This document shows, piece by piece, positions 5,732 through 14,045 of a stretch of DNA of 56,462 nt. This DNA is from a virus: the IMG/VR virus record IMGVR_UViG_3300012357_000006, positions 1 through 56,462 of that record. The stretch is one strand, 5' to 3'. Position numbers and translations under genes: made by a program. The number at the start of each line of letters is the position of its first letter. Position 1 is the first letter of the stretch. The notes below the pieces were generated by a model. It had not been told where the DNA came from. It did no database searches and saw only the letters and a list, made by a program, of their open reading frames with translations.

Positions 5732-5964
5732 GACATTTTATAAAAGACAATGATGTCTTGTTTCTAATTGGAATAAAAGACCAGTCATTAACGCCATTTG
5801 ATCCTGCGGGTGAACTTGCAGGTGTTGCTCAAACTTTTCGCGTTATCATTGAAGTAGGGCCTAAACCGATTCTTGTTCTTATTCCTCTCGGCGATCCCAA
5901 AAACATTACGAATAAGATGATGAAAAGTTTTCACGGTACGCCCTGCGGGAGTGTCAATCCATGA
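5728..5964 (+). CDS. Hypothetical protein, 78 aa
   Basis: Starts at an ATGA overlap with the endolysin stop and ends at an ATGA overlap with the NADAR gene, so it is translated as part of the same chain. Residues of about 36-53 (TFRVIIEVGPKPILVLIPLG) are hydrophobic but look more like buried beta strands than a membrane helix. No family is recognised. The endolysin-adjacent position does not by itself point to lysis. Confidence 0.6.
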   Translation: MRHFIKDNDVLFLIGIKDQSLTPFDPAGELAGVAQTFRVIIEVGPKPILVLIPLGDPKNITNKMMKSFHGTPCGSVNP

Positions 5965-6386
5965 TAAATGGATTTTACGGGCAATACGAATTTTTATCAA
6001 ACTTCTATTGCTGGCCGATTGTGTGGAAAGGAATGGTGCTTCCTTCGGCTGAGCATGTCTACCAGTCGGAAAAGACAACGGATGATTCAGAACGAGAAGC
6101 TATTTATTGTTCGATTACTCCGGCTAAAGCAAAGCATTTCGGGAGTCCCAAAAAACTGAAACATCTTAAACCTGATTGGAGCACCATCAAAGAAACAGTC
6201 ATGCTTGAAGTTTTACGAGCGAAATTTTCTGATCCCGAGTTGAAAACTCTACTACTTAAAACCGATAATGAACGATTGATTGAGAAAAACTGGTGGGGTG
6301 ATACATACTGGGGCGTTTACAACGGATATGGAAAAAATCGGCTCGGAGAACTCTTGATGAAGGTCAGAGAGGAGTTTCGATCATGA
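5961..6386 (+). CDS. NADAR (YbiA/RibX-like) family protein
   Basis: The 141 residues match the NADAR fold from end to end: FYGQYEFLSNFY at the start, then MVLPSAEHVYQSEKT with the conserved SxEHxYQ, then a Lys/Asp-rich middle with VMLEVLRAKFSD, and NWWGDTYWGVYNGYGKNRLGELLMKVR at the C-terminus. Family members are N-glycosidases acting on riboflavin intermediates or on ADP-ribosylated substrates; some NADAR enzymes remove ADP-ribose from guanine bases in DNA and are linked to toxin or phage-defence systems. In a phage genome, with no riboflavin genes around, a counter-defence role against ADP-ribosylation is a reasonable inference. Confidence 0.88.
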   Translation: MINGFYGQYEFLSNFYCWPIVWKGMVLPSAEHVYQSEKTTDDSEREAIYCSITPAKAKHFGSPKKLKHLKPDWSTIKETVMLEVLRAKFSDPELKTLLLKTDNERLIEKNWWGDTYWGVYNGYGKNRLGELLMKVREEFRS

Positions 6387-6993: not shown

Positions 6994-7619
6994 TGCGAAT
7001 TCTCTGGAATGAAAATGAGAAACAATTCGAAGCACAGTTTAGTCAGGGCGACCAGTGGCAAAGTGATAAGGACCTTGCTGATGCCTCGGGATTTTCTACT
7101 GATGGACCTCCGGCGTGGATATGGCGCACTACGAAGGCTGCCACGCTCACGAAACTTCAGAAGACTTATCCTGCGGGAGTTTCGCCGGGCATTACGATCA
7201 CGAGAACCGCGCTGGATGCCTACAATCATTTACGAGCAATCGAAGAACGCGACGCCGAACTCCGAAAGTTTGCCAAAGAGCAAAAGAAACTCCAAAAGAA
7301 AGAACAAGAGCGCTCAAAGATTGCAGCACAACATGAAGAAGGGGACGAAATCGAGCCCGAGTATGAGCCGACATGCTATCGCGAAATCCCGGTTTACTGG
7401 ACGAGTAAAACAGAAATTACGCGGGCCGGTTTGCCCGGCGACATACTGGCACGATTTGTACGACACGAATCCTTCACCCATCAAGAATTATGGGCGAAAC
7501 CGATAGGCGTATGCACTATATGCGGCGACAATCTCTACTTCCCAGAGGAACCGCCAGTGTGTTTCTGGTGTGACGGTCTCGGTAAAGAAAAATTCTTTGA
7601 AGAACTACTTGACAACTGA
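6993..7619 (+). CDS. Hypothetical protein with coiled coil and C-terminal zinc ribbon, 208 aa
   Basis: ATG 6993 overlaps the previous stop (TGATG). The N-terminal third is a small alpha/beta region with several Trp. Residues of about 83-110 are a highly charged Lys/Glu/Gln coiled coil (ERDAELRKFAKEQKKLQKK). Near the end VCTICGDN and VCFWCDG give a CxxC-x15-CxxC ribbon. No enzyme motif is seen. The promoter of the tmRNA gene overlaps its last codons (TTGACA at 7609), so the two transcription units are directly abutted. Confidence 0.6.
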   Translation: MRILWNENEKQFEAQFSQGDQWQSDKDLADASGFSTDGPPAWIWRTTKAATLTKLQKTYPAGVSPGITITRTALDAYNHLRAIEERDAELRKFAKEQKKLQKKEQERSKIAAQHEEGDEIEPEYEPTCYREIPVYWTSKTEITRAGLPGDILARFVRHESFTHQELWAKPIGVCTICGDNLYFPEEPPVCFWCDGLGKEKFFEELLDN

Positions 7620-7637
7620 AGTGATTTTTGCTATATT
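7609..7637 (+). promoter_or_regulatory. Strong sigma70-type promoter of the tmRNA gene
   Basis: TTGACA (7609-7614), exactly 17 bases, TATATT (7632-7637). This is the best promoter in the window by consensus. It overlaps the end of the upstream gene and starts transcription near 7644, just ahead of the acceptor half of the permuted tmRNA. Confidence 0.75.
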
Positions 7638-7644
7638 CACGAAT

Positions 7645-8005
7645 ACAATGATTTCAAAAAGTCCAGTGGTGGAGGCGTATCAAACCGTGTTACCGGAGTT
7701 TCTGGCTTCTCCAGATTACGCATGTCAATATCCCATGGCTACTCAACTGGACGGGAGTTCGACTCTCCCCAGGTCCACCAATACCTTCTCGCTGAGAAGT
7801 TTTTCTGCGGGCCTGACCCGGCTTCGACAGATGAGATTAGTGGTGGGAGGCTCGTGCCGAGAATGGACACCTCGTATAAAAGTGTACCAAATCATAAAAG
7901 TCAACACCATGTTGGCTAAGGTGATTGGGTTTCTAAAGTCCCTGGTGCCGACGTTCGAGTCCTTCGATACGTTCGCGCCTGCGGCTTTGGCAGCCTAGTC
8001 GCCGG
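7645..8005 (+). ncRNA. ssrA: Circularly permuted (two-piece) tmRNA
   Basis: The order is inverted relative to a normal tmRNA. The acceptor half comes first and ends with a T arm (GGGAG/CTCCC around TTCGACT, 7753-7769) and an encoded CCA at 7778-7780. After a 28-base intervening segment (7781-7808), the coding half begins at 7809 with the tmRNA-specific 5' end (GGGCCTG, then GGCTTCGAC). GGGCCTG (7809-7815) pairs with CAGGTCC (7770-7776) over 7 bp with one G-U. TAGTGGTGGGA in the coding half pairs with TCCCATGGCTA in the acceptor half, forming helix P2 with one mismatch. GTGCCGAG...CCTCGTA matches the PK1 region. AAAAGTC precedes the resume codon, and the tag frame (7903-7998) ends AALAA then TAG. 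The 5' boundary is estimated from the promoter. No smpB is in the window. Confidence 0.9.
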
Positions 8006-8032
8006 GTGGGGCTGTCCAAAAGATGGCCCCAC
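8006..8032 (+). terminator. Hairpin at the end of the tmRNA gene
   Basis: GTGGGGCT (8006-8013) pairs with GGCCCCAC (8025-8032), an 8 bp stem with one G-U pair and an 11-base loop. It is followed by a weak T/A-rich run rather than a proper T tract, so it may be a modest terminator or a 3' end stabiliser/processing signal for the coding piece. Confidence 0.5.
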
Positions 8033-8051
8033 TTACTAATTAGGAGGTAAT

Positions 8052-8198
8052 ATGGCAGCGAAAAAGAAAGCAAAGAAGAAATCCACGGTGAAAACTCGCG
8101 AGGCGAAAAAGAAAGTTCTGGCAATATCTGCGCCTCCCTACGAGCCGGAACCGTTTGAAGGATTTGATGAAGATTTTGACGACGGCGGAGAAGCATGA
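8052..8198 (+). CDS. Small bipolar protein, basic head and acidic tail, 48 aa
   Basis: A strong ribosome site TAGGAGG lies 8 bases before ATG 8052, and the stop overlaps the next ATG (ATGA at 8195). The first half is nearly all Lys/Ala (AAKKKAKKK), the last third is Asp/Glu/Gly-rich (GFDEDFDDGGE). Such polar peptides often bind nucleic acid at one end and protein at the other. Function unknown. Confidence 0.6.
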   Translation: MAAKKKAKKKSTVKTREAKKKVLAISAPPYEPEPFEGFDEDFDDGGEA

Positions 8199-8717: not shown

Positions 8718-8902
8718 TGCCATCTAAATCCAGATCAAAATTTTGGGTAGGGCAAGTAATTTGTCTGCCAAAGGGTCCGTTGCAGCCACGTAATCGCTAC
8801 GGAAAAATACAGAGAATTGATGACACGGCCATCCAGACAACTGATGGTTATTGGTACAAACCACAAGTACGACCCCTTACCAAACATGAGATGAACAAAT
8901 GA
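8717..8902 (+). CDS. Small basic beta-barrel-like protein, 61 aa
   Basis: Begins at a TAATG overlap and ends at an ATGA overlap with the receiver-like gene. The pattern FWVGQVICLPKGPLQPRNRYGKIQRI, with alternating hydrophobic residues and Gly turns, looks like a small SH3-type barrel, as in KOW-like or Mu-Gam-tail-like RNA/DNA binders. Similar barrels occur at 14897 and 15136. No specific family recognised. Confidence 0.5.
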   Translation: MPSKSRSKFWVGQVICLPKGPLQPRNRYGKIQRIDDTAIQTTDGYWYKPQVRPLTKHEMNK

Positions 8903-9303
8903 CGAAACCAGTTATTCAAATTCGAAAGGGCGGTCGCGTCTATATCGTCGAGGATAATGAAGAGCGCATCAAATGGTTTCTCGAAAAAATGCCGCATGAG
9001 ATTGTCTACCATCAGGCAGACCCTGATCTAGCGGTTGACCATTTACGAGTGATGGTTCCAGAGATGTTTGATGCTATTTTCCTGGACTTCGATCTCGGGC
9101 CGGGAAATGTGAAAAATTCGACTATCAATTCGATACCAGTTGTCGATTTCCTGAATGGCCGACTGACGACGCGACGGTCCCAACGGGTTATTGTAATCCA
9201 CTCTTGCAATGAGCCGGGAGCATTTTGGATGAACACAATACTACCCGGCGCGACTCGACTGCCATTCGGCGAATTCGACATTCAGGAGATGAGCAATGAA
9301 TGA
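8899..9303 (+). CDS. Receiver-like protein, cyclic-phosphate-processing receiver (cPPR) type
   Basis: The 134-residue protein has a response-regulator-like fold: VYIVEDNEERIKWF at the start with the acidic pair Glu18/Asp19, then IFLDFDLG with Asp63 at the end of strand 3, then VIVIHSCNEPGAFWM. The last motif (HS-x-N-x2-G-x3-M) and the LDxDLG form are typical of the cPPR branch, predicted by comparative genomics to act on 2',3'-cyclic phosphate ends of RNA rather than in two-component signalling. There is no output domain and no histidine kinase nearby. With the RNA ligase at 1388 it suggests RNA-end repair, but this activity is a prediction for the family. Confidence 0.65.
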   Translation: MTKPVIQIRKGGRVYIVEDNEERIKWFLEKMPHEIVYHQADPDLAVDHLRVMVPEMFDAIFLDFDLGPGNVKNSTINSIPVVDFLNGRLTTRRSQRVIVIHSCNEPGAFWMNTILPGATRLPFGEFDIQEMSNE

Positions 9304-10295: not shown

Positions 10296-10877
10296 GTGGA
10301 TGAGACTTATTTGAGCGGAAGAGAGGATAGTCGGCATATGTGGGACCGAATCCATAAGCCGAGAGAACGGTCAGAGAAAGCAGCCGTCATCGGGTTGCGG
10401 GAACGTGGCGGGAATGTCGTGGCTCAAGTGATCCAAAGCACGGGCGGTCGGGAGTTGCGAGCAGCGATTCACAAGAACGTGGCGGCAGGTTCTCGAATCA
10501 TGACCGACGATTTTGGAAGTTACGTTGCTTTGAAACGAGAGGGGTTTGAGCACGAATCCGTGAAGCACATCACTGGAGAATATGTTCGTGGCGATGTCCA
10601 CACAAATTCAATTGAGAGTGTTTGGGCAGTGATGAAGAGGGGATTGCATGGGGTCTATCATCATGCCAGCAAGAAGCATCTCGGACGCTATGTGAATGAA
10701 TTTACATTTCGGCTCAATGCGGGCCGAGTGCAGCGGCATACTTTCGAGAGATTGGATAGTTTCGTGGATGTTGTTGTAGGAAAGAGAATTACATATGAGC
10801 AACTTACAAAGGAGACTATTGGAAAATGGGGTCATTCAATATCACCTATCACTCCACTACACTTGGAAAGTCGATAA
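10296..10877 (+). CDS. IS1595-family (ISXO2-like) transposase, DDE domain only
   Basis: The frame opens right after a TGA (10290-10292) with GTG 10296 and the motif VDETYLSG, which in full-length ISXO2-type transposases sits well over 100 residues into the protein. The catalytic residues are present: Asp2 in VDETY, Asp71 in MTDDFGSY, Glu107 in HTNSIESVW; so are GEYVRGDVHTN and HLGRYVNEFTFRLN. The zinc-ribbon and helix-turn-helix N-terminus is absent, there is no good ribosome site (GGGGAA is about 17 bases away), and the last 52 bases overlap the next gene. I see no terminal inverted repeats or target duplication. It is either an insertion remnant or a catalytic domain kept by the phage. Confidence 0.8.
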   Translation: MDETYLSGREDSRHMWDRIHKPRERSEKAAVIGLRERGGNVVAQVIQSTGGRELRAAIHKNVAAGSRIMTDDFGSYVALKREGFEHESVKHITGEYVRGDVHTNSIESVWAVMKRGLHGVYHHASKKHLGRYVNEFTFRLNAGRVQRHTFERLDSFVDVVVGKRITYEQLTKETIGKWGHSISPITPLHLESR

Positions 10878-11395
10878 CTCGGCCCTTTGAAGGTGCCGAT
10901 GAAAAAGATGCTCAAATCAAATTCCTCGCCGCATGGCCAGGCATACGTACAGAGCAAATTCAAACCGTCGAAAGAGCCGCTCCTCAGCAGAAGCCATTGC
11001 AAATTGTTTGGAGAGATAAGCGAACAGGCGAAGAATTTATTGCCCGTCAAGATTATATTGAAAAATTACCAACTGTTCTTCGACAAGGGAAAGCGTCCGT
11101 AATGCTAGTTAAGGATGTCTTACTAGCGATGGGGTTTAAGGATAGCGAAGCGAATCGTCGGCAACTTCGCTTTGCCAAGGCATATTTGGTTGCCGAAAAA
11201 GACATTCCAATTTGTTCCGTCCGATCACTAGACGGAGGGTACTTCCTAGCAACCGACGCCAGTGACTTGTTCGGGGATGCAGATGCTTATCGTGCTCAGG
11301 CGGAAGGTATGATTCGTGCCGCAGAAGAATTAGAGGCTCTTGCTCATCGGATATTTTCAAAAGAGGTAGCATATGAGACCACTCTACAAAATTAA
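10826..11395 (+). CDS. Winged-helix-like DNA-binding protein, 189 aa
   Basis: AAGGAG lies 10 bases before the ATG. The N-terminal 50 residues are a small beta-rich segment (FNITYHSTTLGKSITRPF). Residues of about 90-145 have the pattern of a phage winged helix: VKDVLLAMGFKDSEANRRQL, then IPICSVRSLDGGYFLAT, the PICS...GGYFLAT wing being quite typical. A helical C-terminus follows. It overlaps the ABC/GNAT gene by 23 bases, so the two are probably made together, and it may direct that protein to DNA or regulate the unit. Its exact target is unknown. Confidence 0.6.
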   Translation: MGSFNITYHSTTLGKSITRPFEGADEKDAQIKFLAAWPGIRTEQIQTVERAAPQQKPLQIVWRDKRTGEEFIARQDYIEKLPTVLRQGKASVMLVKDVLLAMGFKDSEANRRQLRFAKAYLVAEKDIPICSVRSLDGGYFLATDASDLFGDADAYRAQAEGMIRAAEELEALAHRIFSKEVAYETTLQN

Positions 11396-12593
11396 GGTAA
11401 AGACTGATACGTTTACCGATGAAGTTGCCAAAGCATTAGATTATGCTTTCATAGGAGAGTCCGTCTTTGAAGGTTGGGAAAAGCCAGAAGTGCCGTCGGA
11501 CTTCAAAATAGGCTTGATTCTAGGCCCGAGCGGAAGCGGAAAAACTTTGCTTCTGAGACAATTCGGAACGGAAGCCCAACCAGAATGGAGCGACACAAAA
11601 GCGATTGTCTCCCATTTTTCGACTCCGGCTGAAGCCATAGATCGCTTAATGGCGGTGGGGCTTAACTCCGTCCCCTCATGGTGCAAACCGTTTCATGTTT
11701 TATCTAACGGCGAGCAGTTTCGGGCAAACCTTGCTCGTAAACTGGAGAATGGAGCGGTCATAGACGAATATACATCGGTGATTGATAGGAACGTAGCAAA
11801 GGCTGCGTCGGTTGCCGTACGTCGTTATGTCGATAATCAGAATTTTCATGGGTTGGTTTTCGCTTCCTGCCACTATGATATTTTAGAATGGTTGCGTCCC
11901 GACTGGTATTTTGATACGGTGACAGGAATTTTGCACGATGGGAGGTCACTTCGGCGGCCAAAAATCAAACTCCGACTCTATCCGTGCCAACGTAGTATCT
12001 GGCCCATGTTTGCGAGTCATCACTATTTGACTCCCGATCTGAATCAGTCGTGCCATTCCTATTTGGCAACTGCTCAGTTTGGGGAACAGGCGGAAACAAT
12101 AGTCGGTTTCGTTTCTAGTATAGCACAACCGATAGGTGGACGGAATTGTGCGGATTGCGGACACGGGCATGTAGATAAGGACTGTGGGAAAACGCCGGTC
12201 AGTAAAGGGTGTAAATGTAAGAACTTCAAATTCCAAAGGGGGTCGGACGAACGCAAGGCATATCGAGAACACCGCACTGTAGTATTACCTGACTTTCAGG
12301 GGTTAGGAATCGGACCAAGAATTTCGGACACTATCGCCCAATTCTATCTTGACCAGGGAAAAAGATATTTTTCAAAAACAGCACATGTTCGCTTCGGGGG
12401 TTACAGAGACAAGAAAAACTCGGGGTGGATACCCACCTGCAAATATCGTAAAGAGCGACTGGATATAAGTGATAAGACAAAGAGAGACAAAGCCGCTAAA
12501 GAAGAGGGTCATAAAGCACTCTTTAGTGATTATCATGGGGATAGTAAAAGAATTTGTTACAGTCACGAATTTGTGGGCAAGGAGGCCGCATGA
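11373..12593 (+). CDS. ABC-type ATPase fused to a GNAT acetyltransferase-like domain
   Basis: Residues 45-170 are an ABC ATPase: Walker A GPSGSGKT (51-58), signature LSNGEQ (110-115), Walker B GAVIDE (127-132) and an H-loop His167 in ASCHYD. No transporter partner exists. From about 195 a GNAT-like fold begins, with IVGFVSS in the central strand region and VVLPDFQGLGIGPRISD (303-319), the acetyl-CoA-binding QGLGIG loop. Between them (259-282) lies a Cys/His-rich insert with CADCGHGH and CKC, a likely zinc site. RYFSKTAHVRFGG follows. This architecture recurs in phages; Mom of phage Mu is a distant GNAT relative that modifies adenine, so base modification is one hypothesis. Confidence 0.8.
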   Translation: MRPLYKIKVKTDTFTDEVAKALDYAFIGESVFEGWEKPEVPSDFKIGLILGPSGSGKTLLLRQFGTEAQPEWSDTKAIVSHFSTPAEAIDRLMAVGLNSVPSWCKPFHVLSNGEQFRANLARKLENGAVIDEYTSVIDRNVAKAASVAVRRYVDNQNFHGLVFASCHYDILEWLRPDWYFDTVTGILHDGRSLRRPKIKLRLYPCQRSIWPMFASHHYLTPDLNQSCHSYLATAQFGEQAETIVGFVSSIAQPIGGRNCADCGHGHVDKDCGKTPVSKGCKCKNFKFQRGSDERKAYREHRTVVLPDFQGLGIGPRISDTIAQFYLDQGKRYFSKTAHVRFGGYRDKKNSGWIPTCKYRKERLDISDKTKRDKAAKEEGHKALFSDYHGDSKRICYSHEFVGKEAA

Positions 12594-13148: not shown

Positions 13149-14045
13149 ATGACAACATTCGCTGATCAATCGATAGAGTACATGCGCGGGCTCAGAATGA
13201 ACCGCAAACCTCGGCGTTCCGGCACCCTGGACGCCTATCAGTCCTATCTGGACGCTCATTTGCTACCCCAAATGGGCTCCAGGGCGTTGTTAGACCTTGA
13301 TAATGCCGCTGCCAAAGTGTTTTTTAGTCCGATCAGCGACAAACTGGCCGCCAGCACGGTCAAGGGTATCTTCAACGTTTTTAAGGGGGTTATAGCCTCC
13401 GCCGTAGACCAAAATGGCAATCAAATCTACCCTCGGACCTGGAATAAGTCGTTCCTGGACCTTCCCAAACTGTCTCCGGCCGATCAAAACACCCCTGTGA
13501 TAGCCGATAAAACGCTACAGGAGGCGTTTCTAGAGGGGTCTCCCGATGATAGGCTACTCTGGGGCTTGCTAGCGGGCTCCGGGCTCCGCATCGGTGAGGC
13601 TTTAGCGGTACATACTCTTCCAAACGGCCCCGGTAACTACTGGAACCCGTCCAATCGGACGATCACGGTTGATGTTCAACGGCATGAAGCGGGCGACCTG
13701 GGGCCTGTAAAGACGGCAGCCGGGCGCAGGATCGTCGATTTGTGCCCGTCATTGAATGAATTTCTGCTCAAAGTGATTCCAGCAAACGGTTTTCTGATTA
13801 CCAGTCGGGAGGGGGCGGCGCGTAAACGTCTCGACAGGCTCATCCCGAGCACCGGCTTCCATGCTTTCCGGCGTTTTAGACTGACTCAGGTTGCGGTGAA
13901 GAGCACTCCGACTGAACTGGATTACTTTTGGGCAGGCCATGCGGCAAAAGACGTGCATCAGCGCTATGTGAAATGGATTTCAAGAACCGACGAGCGACGT
14001 GAATGGTCTGAGCGCGTCGGACTCGGGTTCGAATTGCCACAATGA
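13149..14045 (+). CDS. int: Tyrosine recombinase, phage integrase
   Basis: The 298-residue protein has a SAM-like N-terminal core-binding region (about 1-110, TLDAYQSYLDAHLLPQMGS) and a catalytic domain with Arg in GSGLRIGEAL (about 142), Lys in GPVKTAAGRR, His-x-x-Arg in GFHAFRRFRL, His in FWAGHAAKDV and Tyr in HQRYVKW. It cuts and joins attP and attB, so the phage is probably temperate. By eye the gene is richer in G+C than its neighbours, hinting at separate origin. I could not locate a convincing attP; the host site is unknown. It starts with its own promoter and probably no leader. Confidence 0.92.
   Translation: MTTFADQSIEYMRGLRMNRKPRRSGTLDAYQSYLDAHLLPQMGSRALLDLDNAAAKVFFSPISDKLAASTVKGIFNVFKGVIASAVDQNGNQIYPRTWNKSFLDLPKLSPADQNTPVIADKTLQEAFLEGSPDDRLLWGLLAGSGLRIGEALAVHTLPNGPGNYWNPSNRTITVDVQRHEAGDLGPVKTAAGRRIVDLCPSLNEFLLKVIPANGFLITSREGAARKRLDRLIPSTGFHAFRRFRLTQVAVKSTPTELDYFWAGHAAKDVHQRYVKWISRTDERREWSERVGLGFELPQ

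Follow-up and report, generated by a model that had tools for sequence, protein, structure and literature searches.

A circularly permuted tmRNA gene in a tailed-phage genome, with a 32-residue tag encoded inside an exceptionally long predicted RNA hairpin

The analyses presented here demonstrate that a tailed-phage genome carries a complete, circularly permuted gene for tmRNA, the RNA that frees stuck ribosomes and marks the unfinished protein for destruction, and that what is unusual in this gene is a 32-residue tag lying inside an exceptionally long predicted RNA hairpin. The window analysed is the whole stretch of 56,462 nucleotides, positions 1-56,462 of the IMG/VR virus record IMGVR_UViG_3300012357_000006, and the parts of the gene described below all lie on its + strand. 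Since the acceptor stem, the G3-U70 pair, the CCA end, the T loop, P2 and PK1 are intact, the tag ends in ALAA and the promoter is strong, we consider it probable that the gene yields a functional two-piece tmRNA, which would tag proteins by way of host factors and be of benefit during infection. Phage-borne permuted tmRNA is in itself already known: it has been described in Melnitz, 53 two-piece tmRNAs have been counted across 18,146 phage genomes, 50 of the 53 being aquatic (PMC9004378), and phages contribute 79 sequences, whatever their form, to the tmRNA database (PMC11915505). Further attention is warranted only for the long structured tag.

ARAGORN called a permuted tmRNA (tmRNA*) with the tag VNTMLAKVIGFLKSLVPTFESFDTFAPAALAA, the sole tRNA or tmRNA gene that it reports in the window, and the Rfam family RF04321 (tmRNA_permuted) matches positions 7720-7998 (+) at 77.7 bits against a cut-off of 47 (E 3e-13 for the whole window), in an alignment spanning the full model, positions 1-213. 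No other Rfam family exceeds its cut-off in the window. The nearest Rfam subtype, beta_tmRNA (RF01850), stays below its gathering score (59.2 bits against 84) and aligns over model positions 57-183 only; no riboswitch family of Rfam matches in the window, and a GP20-b RNA match overlapping the tmRNA was dismissed (E 0.15, below cut-off). An earlier note had proposed a circularly permuted tmRNA that is encoded by the phage and has a promoter of its own, and this is upheld by ARAGORN, by RF04321 and by a promoter match at 11 of 12 consensus positions. That the match arose by chance, or that the region is a protein gene, has next to no probability and is refuted by the covariance-model match: a 142-codon open frame (7570-7998) does cross the region and shares its frame with the tag, but it begins within the upstream gene and spans both tmRNA halves, and against it stand the E value and every tmRNA landmark in its place.

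Both halves are intact, the acceptor half being encoded 5' of the coding half with a 28-nt removable segment between them. The acceptor half (7720-7780; RF04321 alignment from model position 1) comprises the P2 5' strand, the T arm (7753-7769, loop UUCGACU), the 3' acceptor strand (7770-7776), A73 and the encoded CCA (7778-7780), and its mature 5' end may lie upstream of 7720. The intervening segment to be removed (7781-7808) contains a hairpin at 7785-7799 followed by U5 (fold -5.5 kcal/mol); in the short-tag relatives at loci L163, L200 and L239, the intervening segments appear self-complementary by eye in the alignment. The tRNA-like 5' part of the coding half (7809-7857; RF04321 and beta_tmRNA alignments) includes the second acceptor strand (7809-7815), GGCUUCGAC at 7820-7828 and the P2 3' strand, which reaches 7857. 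The halves are bounded and paired as had been described earlier, with the CCA ending at 7780 and the coding half starting at 7809: G7809-G7815 and C7770-C7776 form a 7-bp acceptor stem, in which G7811-U7774 (read from the sequence) is the G3-U70 pair that alanyl-tRNA synthetase recognizes and that confers alanine identity, and P2 joins 7720-7724 to 7853-7857, continuing through 7731-7736 in the MFE fold. PK1 (7858-7888) was read directly from the sequence, its first stem also appearing in the RF04321 alignment; it consists of the stem CGAG/CUCG (7858-7861 with 7871-7874) and the pseudoknot strand GGACAC (7865-7870), which pairs with GUGU-A-CC (7882-7888), and it is separated from the resume codon GUC at 7900 by 11 nt.

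A sigma-70-type promoter (TTGACA-17-TATATT, 7609-7637), predicted from its consensus match only, and a 3' hairpin (8004-8034, 13 bp by fold) frame the gene, as the earlier note had it. Both elements stand, but the hairpin lacks a U-run and was not called as a terminator, so that it is not an ordinary one. A 48-aa ORF with an AGGAGG site, for which no Pfam match was found, follows directly 3' of the tmRNA (8052-8198, +) and, judging by the sequence, is probably co-transcribed with it.

The tag reading frame (7900-7998; ARAGORN and RF04321) has 32 codons followed by UAG. Its first codon is GUC, in a position where 207 of the 219 permuted tmRNA genes compared have GCN, and it ends in ALAA-stop, the terminal TTGGCAGCCTA matching the ALAA-stop end of short-tag relatives (tags ending in AA were seen in 202 of the 219). 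A tree built from the conserved core, with a short core and long branches, places the gene nearest to L200 and L163, viral genes with 10-residue tags; because it shares its TTGGCAGCCTA end with these two, the long tag might be an expansion of an ordinary one.

Most of this frame is predicted to fold on itself. An 8-bp hairpin (7899-7917) lies across the resume codon, and a 35-bp, P5-like helix (7920-8003) takes up the tag frame, stop codon included. The earlier note mentioned neither the long tag nor this helix, nor the phage cases already in print. The fold of 7888-8045 has a z of -7.3 against dinucleotide shuffles, and the energy of the tag region (-54.1) compares with a mean of -30.5 for 1000 synonymous recodings (z -5.0), none of which was as stable. 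Among the 219 permuted tmRNAs compared, the helix is the longest, the runner-up having 28 bp, and no tag region has a lower energy per base; elsewhere, the P5 helix that runs across the stop codon has a median length of 9 bp among viral genes and of 13 bp among bacterial ones. That the helix is kept beyond what the tag residues require, and that 8 of its 35 pairs are G-U, suggests upkeep at the level of RNA, and the G-U pairs would be easier to reconcile with a maintained RNA helix than with a DNA palindrome of recent origin. Long-tag contigs of IMG/VR (e.g. L123, L047 and L142) are alike in that their tags run to 23-33 residues and mostly end in AA, but unlike in that their frames are mostly no more structured than synonymous recodings and their longest helix has 28 bp; for 30 other long-tag genes compared with such recodings, a few z values came near -2 and none reached -2.5. 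Since these genes mostly lack excess structure, the long helix is peculiar to this virus and marks one end of a continuum, and its exact form was seen in one virus only (in two near-identical assemblies).

Judged by its parts, the RNA is a tmRNA of ordinary type that would rely on the processing enzymes, AlaRS, SmpB and protease of the host. We suggest that transcription would start from the promoter at 7609-7637, that host RNase P and 3'-trimming enzymes would cut the precursor around 7780 and 7809, and that pairing in the acceptor stem and in P2 would hold the two RNA pieces together. Through G3-U70 the RNA would be charged with alanine by host AlaRS, and host SmpB would deliver it to ribosomes stalled on broken mRNA, where the 32-residue tag ending in ALAA, a type of signal read by ClpXP-type proteases, would be added and the ribosome released. 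The likeliest benefit would be that ribosomes are kept free while mRNA and tRNA are being broken by nucleases of the host or of the phage. As an extended P5, the long helix would probably shield the message part from single-strand nucleases, with the ribosome still able to melt it. It could also hinder translation of the tag, and it is formally conceivable, albeit unlikely, that the RNA acts against the host system: it would bind host SmpB and AlaRS and enter stalled ribosomes, where its helix-locked message would be poorly translated and host trans-translation blocked or slowed. Such an RNA would resemble the tRNA-like-only tmRNA of mycobacteriophage DS6A, a kind that inhibits tmRNA in E. coli (PMC4131195, PMC11915505). 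This reading agrees with predicted helices that enclose the resume and stop codons and most of the frame between them, with a tag region that is the most stable of the 219, and with a phage that carries no smpB; on the other hand, an interfering RNA would not need the 32-codon open frame and the ALAA-stop end of its relatives that are kept here, other tmRNAs too have P5 helices that run through the stop codon, and ribosomes do unwind long helices. The DS6A RNA is likewise encoded by a phage and may disturb trans-translation in the host (PMC4131195), but it has no message part, and the complete 32-codon tag frame rules out a tRNA-like-only tmRNA of that type here.

The genome in which the tmRNA gene resides is that of a tailed phage. 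The window encodes terminase, a head-tail adaptor and endolysin, and the same tmRNA gene occurs in a second, longer record (IMGVR_UViG_3300012359_000028; 82,432 bases), which shares 99.97% identity with the window across 53,982 bases and also encodes a UvrD helicase, a dUTPase and a primase. The second assembly shows that the gene is not an accident of assembly; it represents the same virus again and does not count as an independent relative. There is no tRNA gene in the window and one tRNA-Thr in the longer record, and host assignment through the terminase returned only distant relatives in the phage collection (<25% identity). A search for smpB in the phage records found none, and SmpB was co-carried on 0 of 48 tmRNA contigs. 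Replacement or diversion of host ribosome rescue by a phage tmRNA, as the earlier note had it, is plausible; without smpB, this phage cannot replace the whole rescue system but can only supply the RNA, and would depend on the SmpB, AlaRS and RNases of its host.

Three further genes on the tmRNA's strand form a possible RNA-repair group: an RNA ligase (1376-1951, +; phrog_548 E 1e-28, PF09414 45.7 bits), a NADAR-domain protein (5961-6386, +; PF08719 80.8 bits) and a cREC-like cyclic-phosphate receiver domain (8899-9303, +; PF20274 25.4 bits, below the cut-off of 27), the translation of which contains the acidic motifs VEDN and IFLDFD. Such domains have been tied to the repair of RNA cut in phage defence (PMC9503650, PMC7824862). 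The idea that the gene serves when mRNAs or tRNAs are being cut draws suggestive support from these same-strand neighbours, but not from enrichment of the RNA ligase (PF09414), which was found on 9 of 48 tmRNA contigs vs 3 of 21 random contigs; cREC exceeded its cut-off on 4 of the 48.

The phage genome also contains an IS1595-family transposase-like protein (PF12762, window 10296-10877) and, at 11373-12593, a phrog_11143 protein with weak likeness to ABC ATPases, the relatives of which occur in Aeromonas, Vibrio, Tenacibaculum and other phages. At 13149-14045 it encodes an integrase-like protein (phrog_1, E 7e-15; no Pfam match), given which the phage may be temperate. This protein, and the frequent use of ssrA as a site of integration (PMC4383910, PMC11915505), would accord with passive cargo, i.e. 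a host ssrA acquired by imprecise excision or left after integration into ssrA and without function for the phage. We regard this as distinctly improbable, considering that the tag and helix are unlike every bacterial copy seen, that the nearest tree neighbours, L200 and L163, lie in viral contigs, and that such genes are frequent in viral contigs. An ssrA integration remnant, that is, a partial copy beside an integrase, was likewise rejected, the gene being complete with its own promoter and the integrase-like ORF 5 kb away.

Several known systems come close to this gene. Melnitz and other marine phages also carry a complete permuted ssrA, with the other parts supplied by the host, and action early in infection has been proposed for the Melnitz-type two-piece tmRNA (PMC9004378), but in Melnitz the gene is of the alphaproteobacterial type and a glutamine riboswitch is present, whereas the present window has no Rfam riboswitch match. 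The permuted tmRNAs of Betaproteobacteria such as Cupriavidus (RF01850 type) have the same order of parts, and the core is about 85% identical to the Cupriavidus copies, but the bacterial tag has 10 residues (ANDEKFALAA) rather than 32, and the 3' region after the tag differs from that of the phage gene. The phages Bhz51 (where the gene is annotated as ssrA), DLP_6, Rb1 and QDWS595, which are phages of Stenotrophomonas, Xanthomonas and Alcaligenes, likewise bear permuted tmRNA, but with tags of 10-14 residues and without the long tag helix.

Two pattern scans of IMG/VR for the permuted arrangement gave 108 and at least 120 stretches, in most of which ARAGORN found permuted tmRNA; a DNA similarity search of the gene against the phage collection gave no match, and a strict pattern for bacterial relatives found none. 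Viral tags form two main groups, of 10-15 and 23-33 residues, and bacterial control tags mostly have 10-14 (a few have 17-19, and a single uncertain call has 24). When one search pattern was applied to both sets, long tags were found in 15 of 71 viral vs 1 of 25 bacterial genes (p 0.06), and in all data in 35 of 163 vs 1 of 51 (p 0.0004), the bacterial set in the latter comparison being biased because it includes top-scoring matches; counted as distinct tags, 30 of 106 viral ones are long (about 23-33 residues), vs at most one doubtful bacterial case. The apparent short/long split of viral tags offers a lead. Tentatively, and with considerable doubt, we propose that phages have a separate class of long-tag permuted tmRNA (about 23-33 residues), in the present member of which the tag frame has turned into a single long duplex, protecting the message part or slowing it. 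Were this so, the gene would not be one borrowed from a host but a tmRNA suited to infections in which nucleases abound, or else a means of slowing trans-translation in the host; for phage tmRNA without SmpB, roles have so far only been proposed (PMC9004378, PMC12656738). The combination of a 32-residue tag and a 35-bp helix gives a clear experimental handle on the role of the helix, separable from that of the tag sequence.

Some long viral tags recur with related peptides, ADTFDFSAMSFTGNTV and VKVSMGRGFRFGS (viral loci e.g. L123, L142, L047 and L117). Several bacterial genomes have an extra permuted tmRNA beside a standard one-piece gene (L249/L268 with L273 in Dyella, L255/L269 with L272 in Pseudogulbenkiania, L246/L271 with L274 in Herbaspirillum), and these extra copies are probably on mobile elements. 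In Cupriavidus pinatubonensis HN-2, the permuted tmRNA pattern is matched on each of the two chromosomes and at two places on plasmid p2 (L239, L252, L257 and L262).
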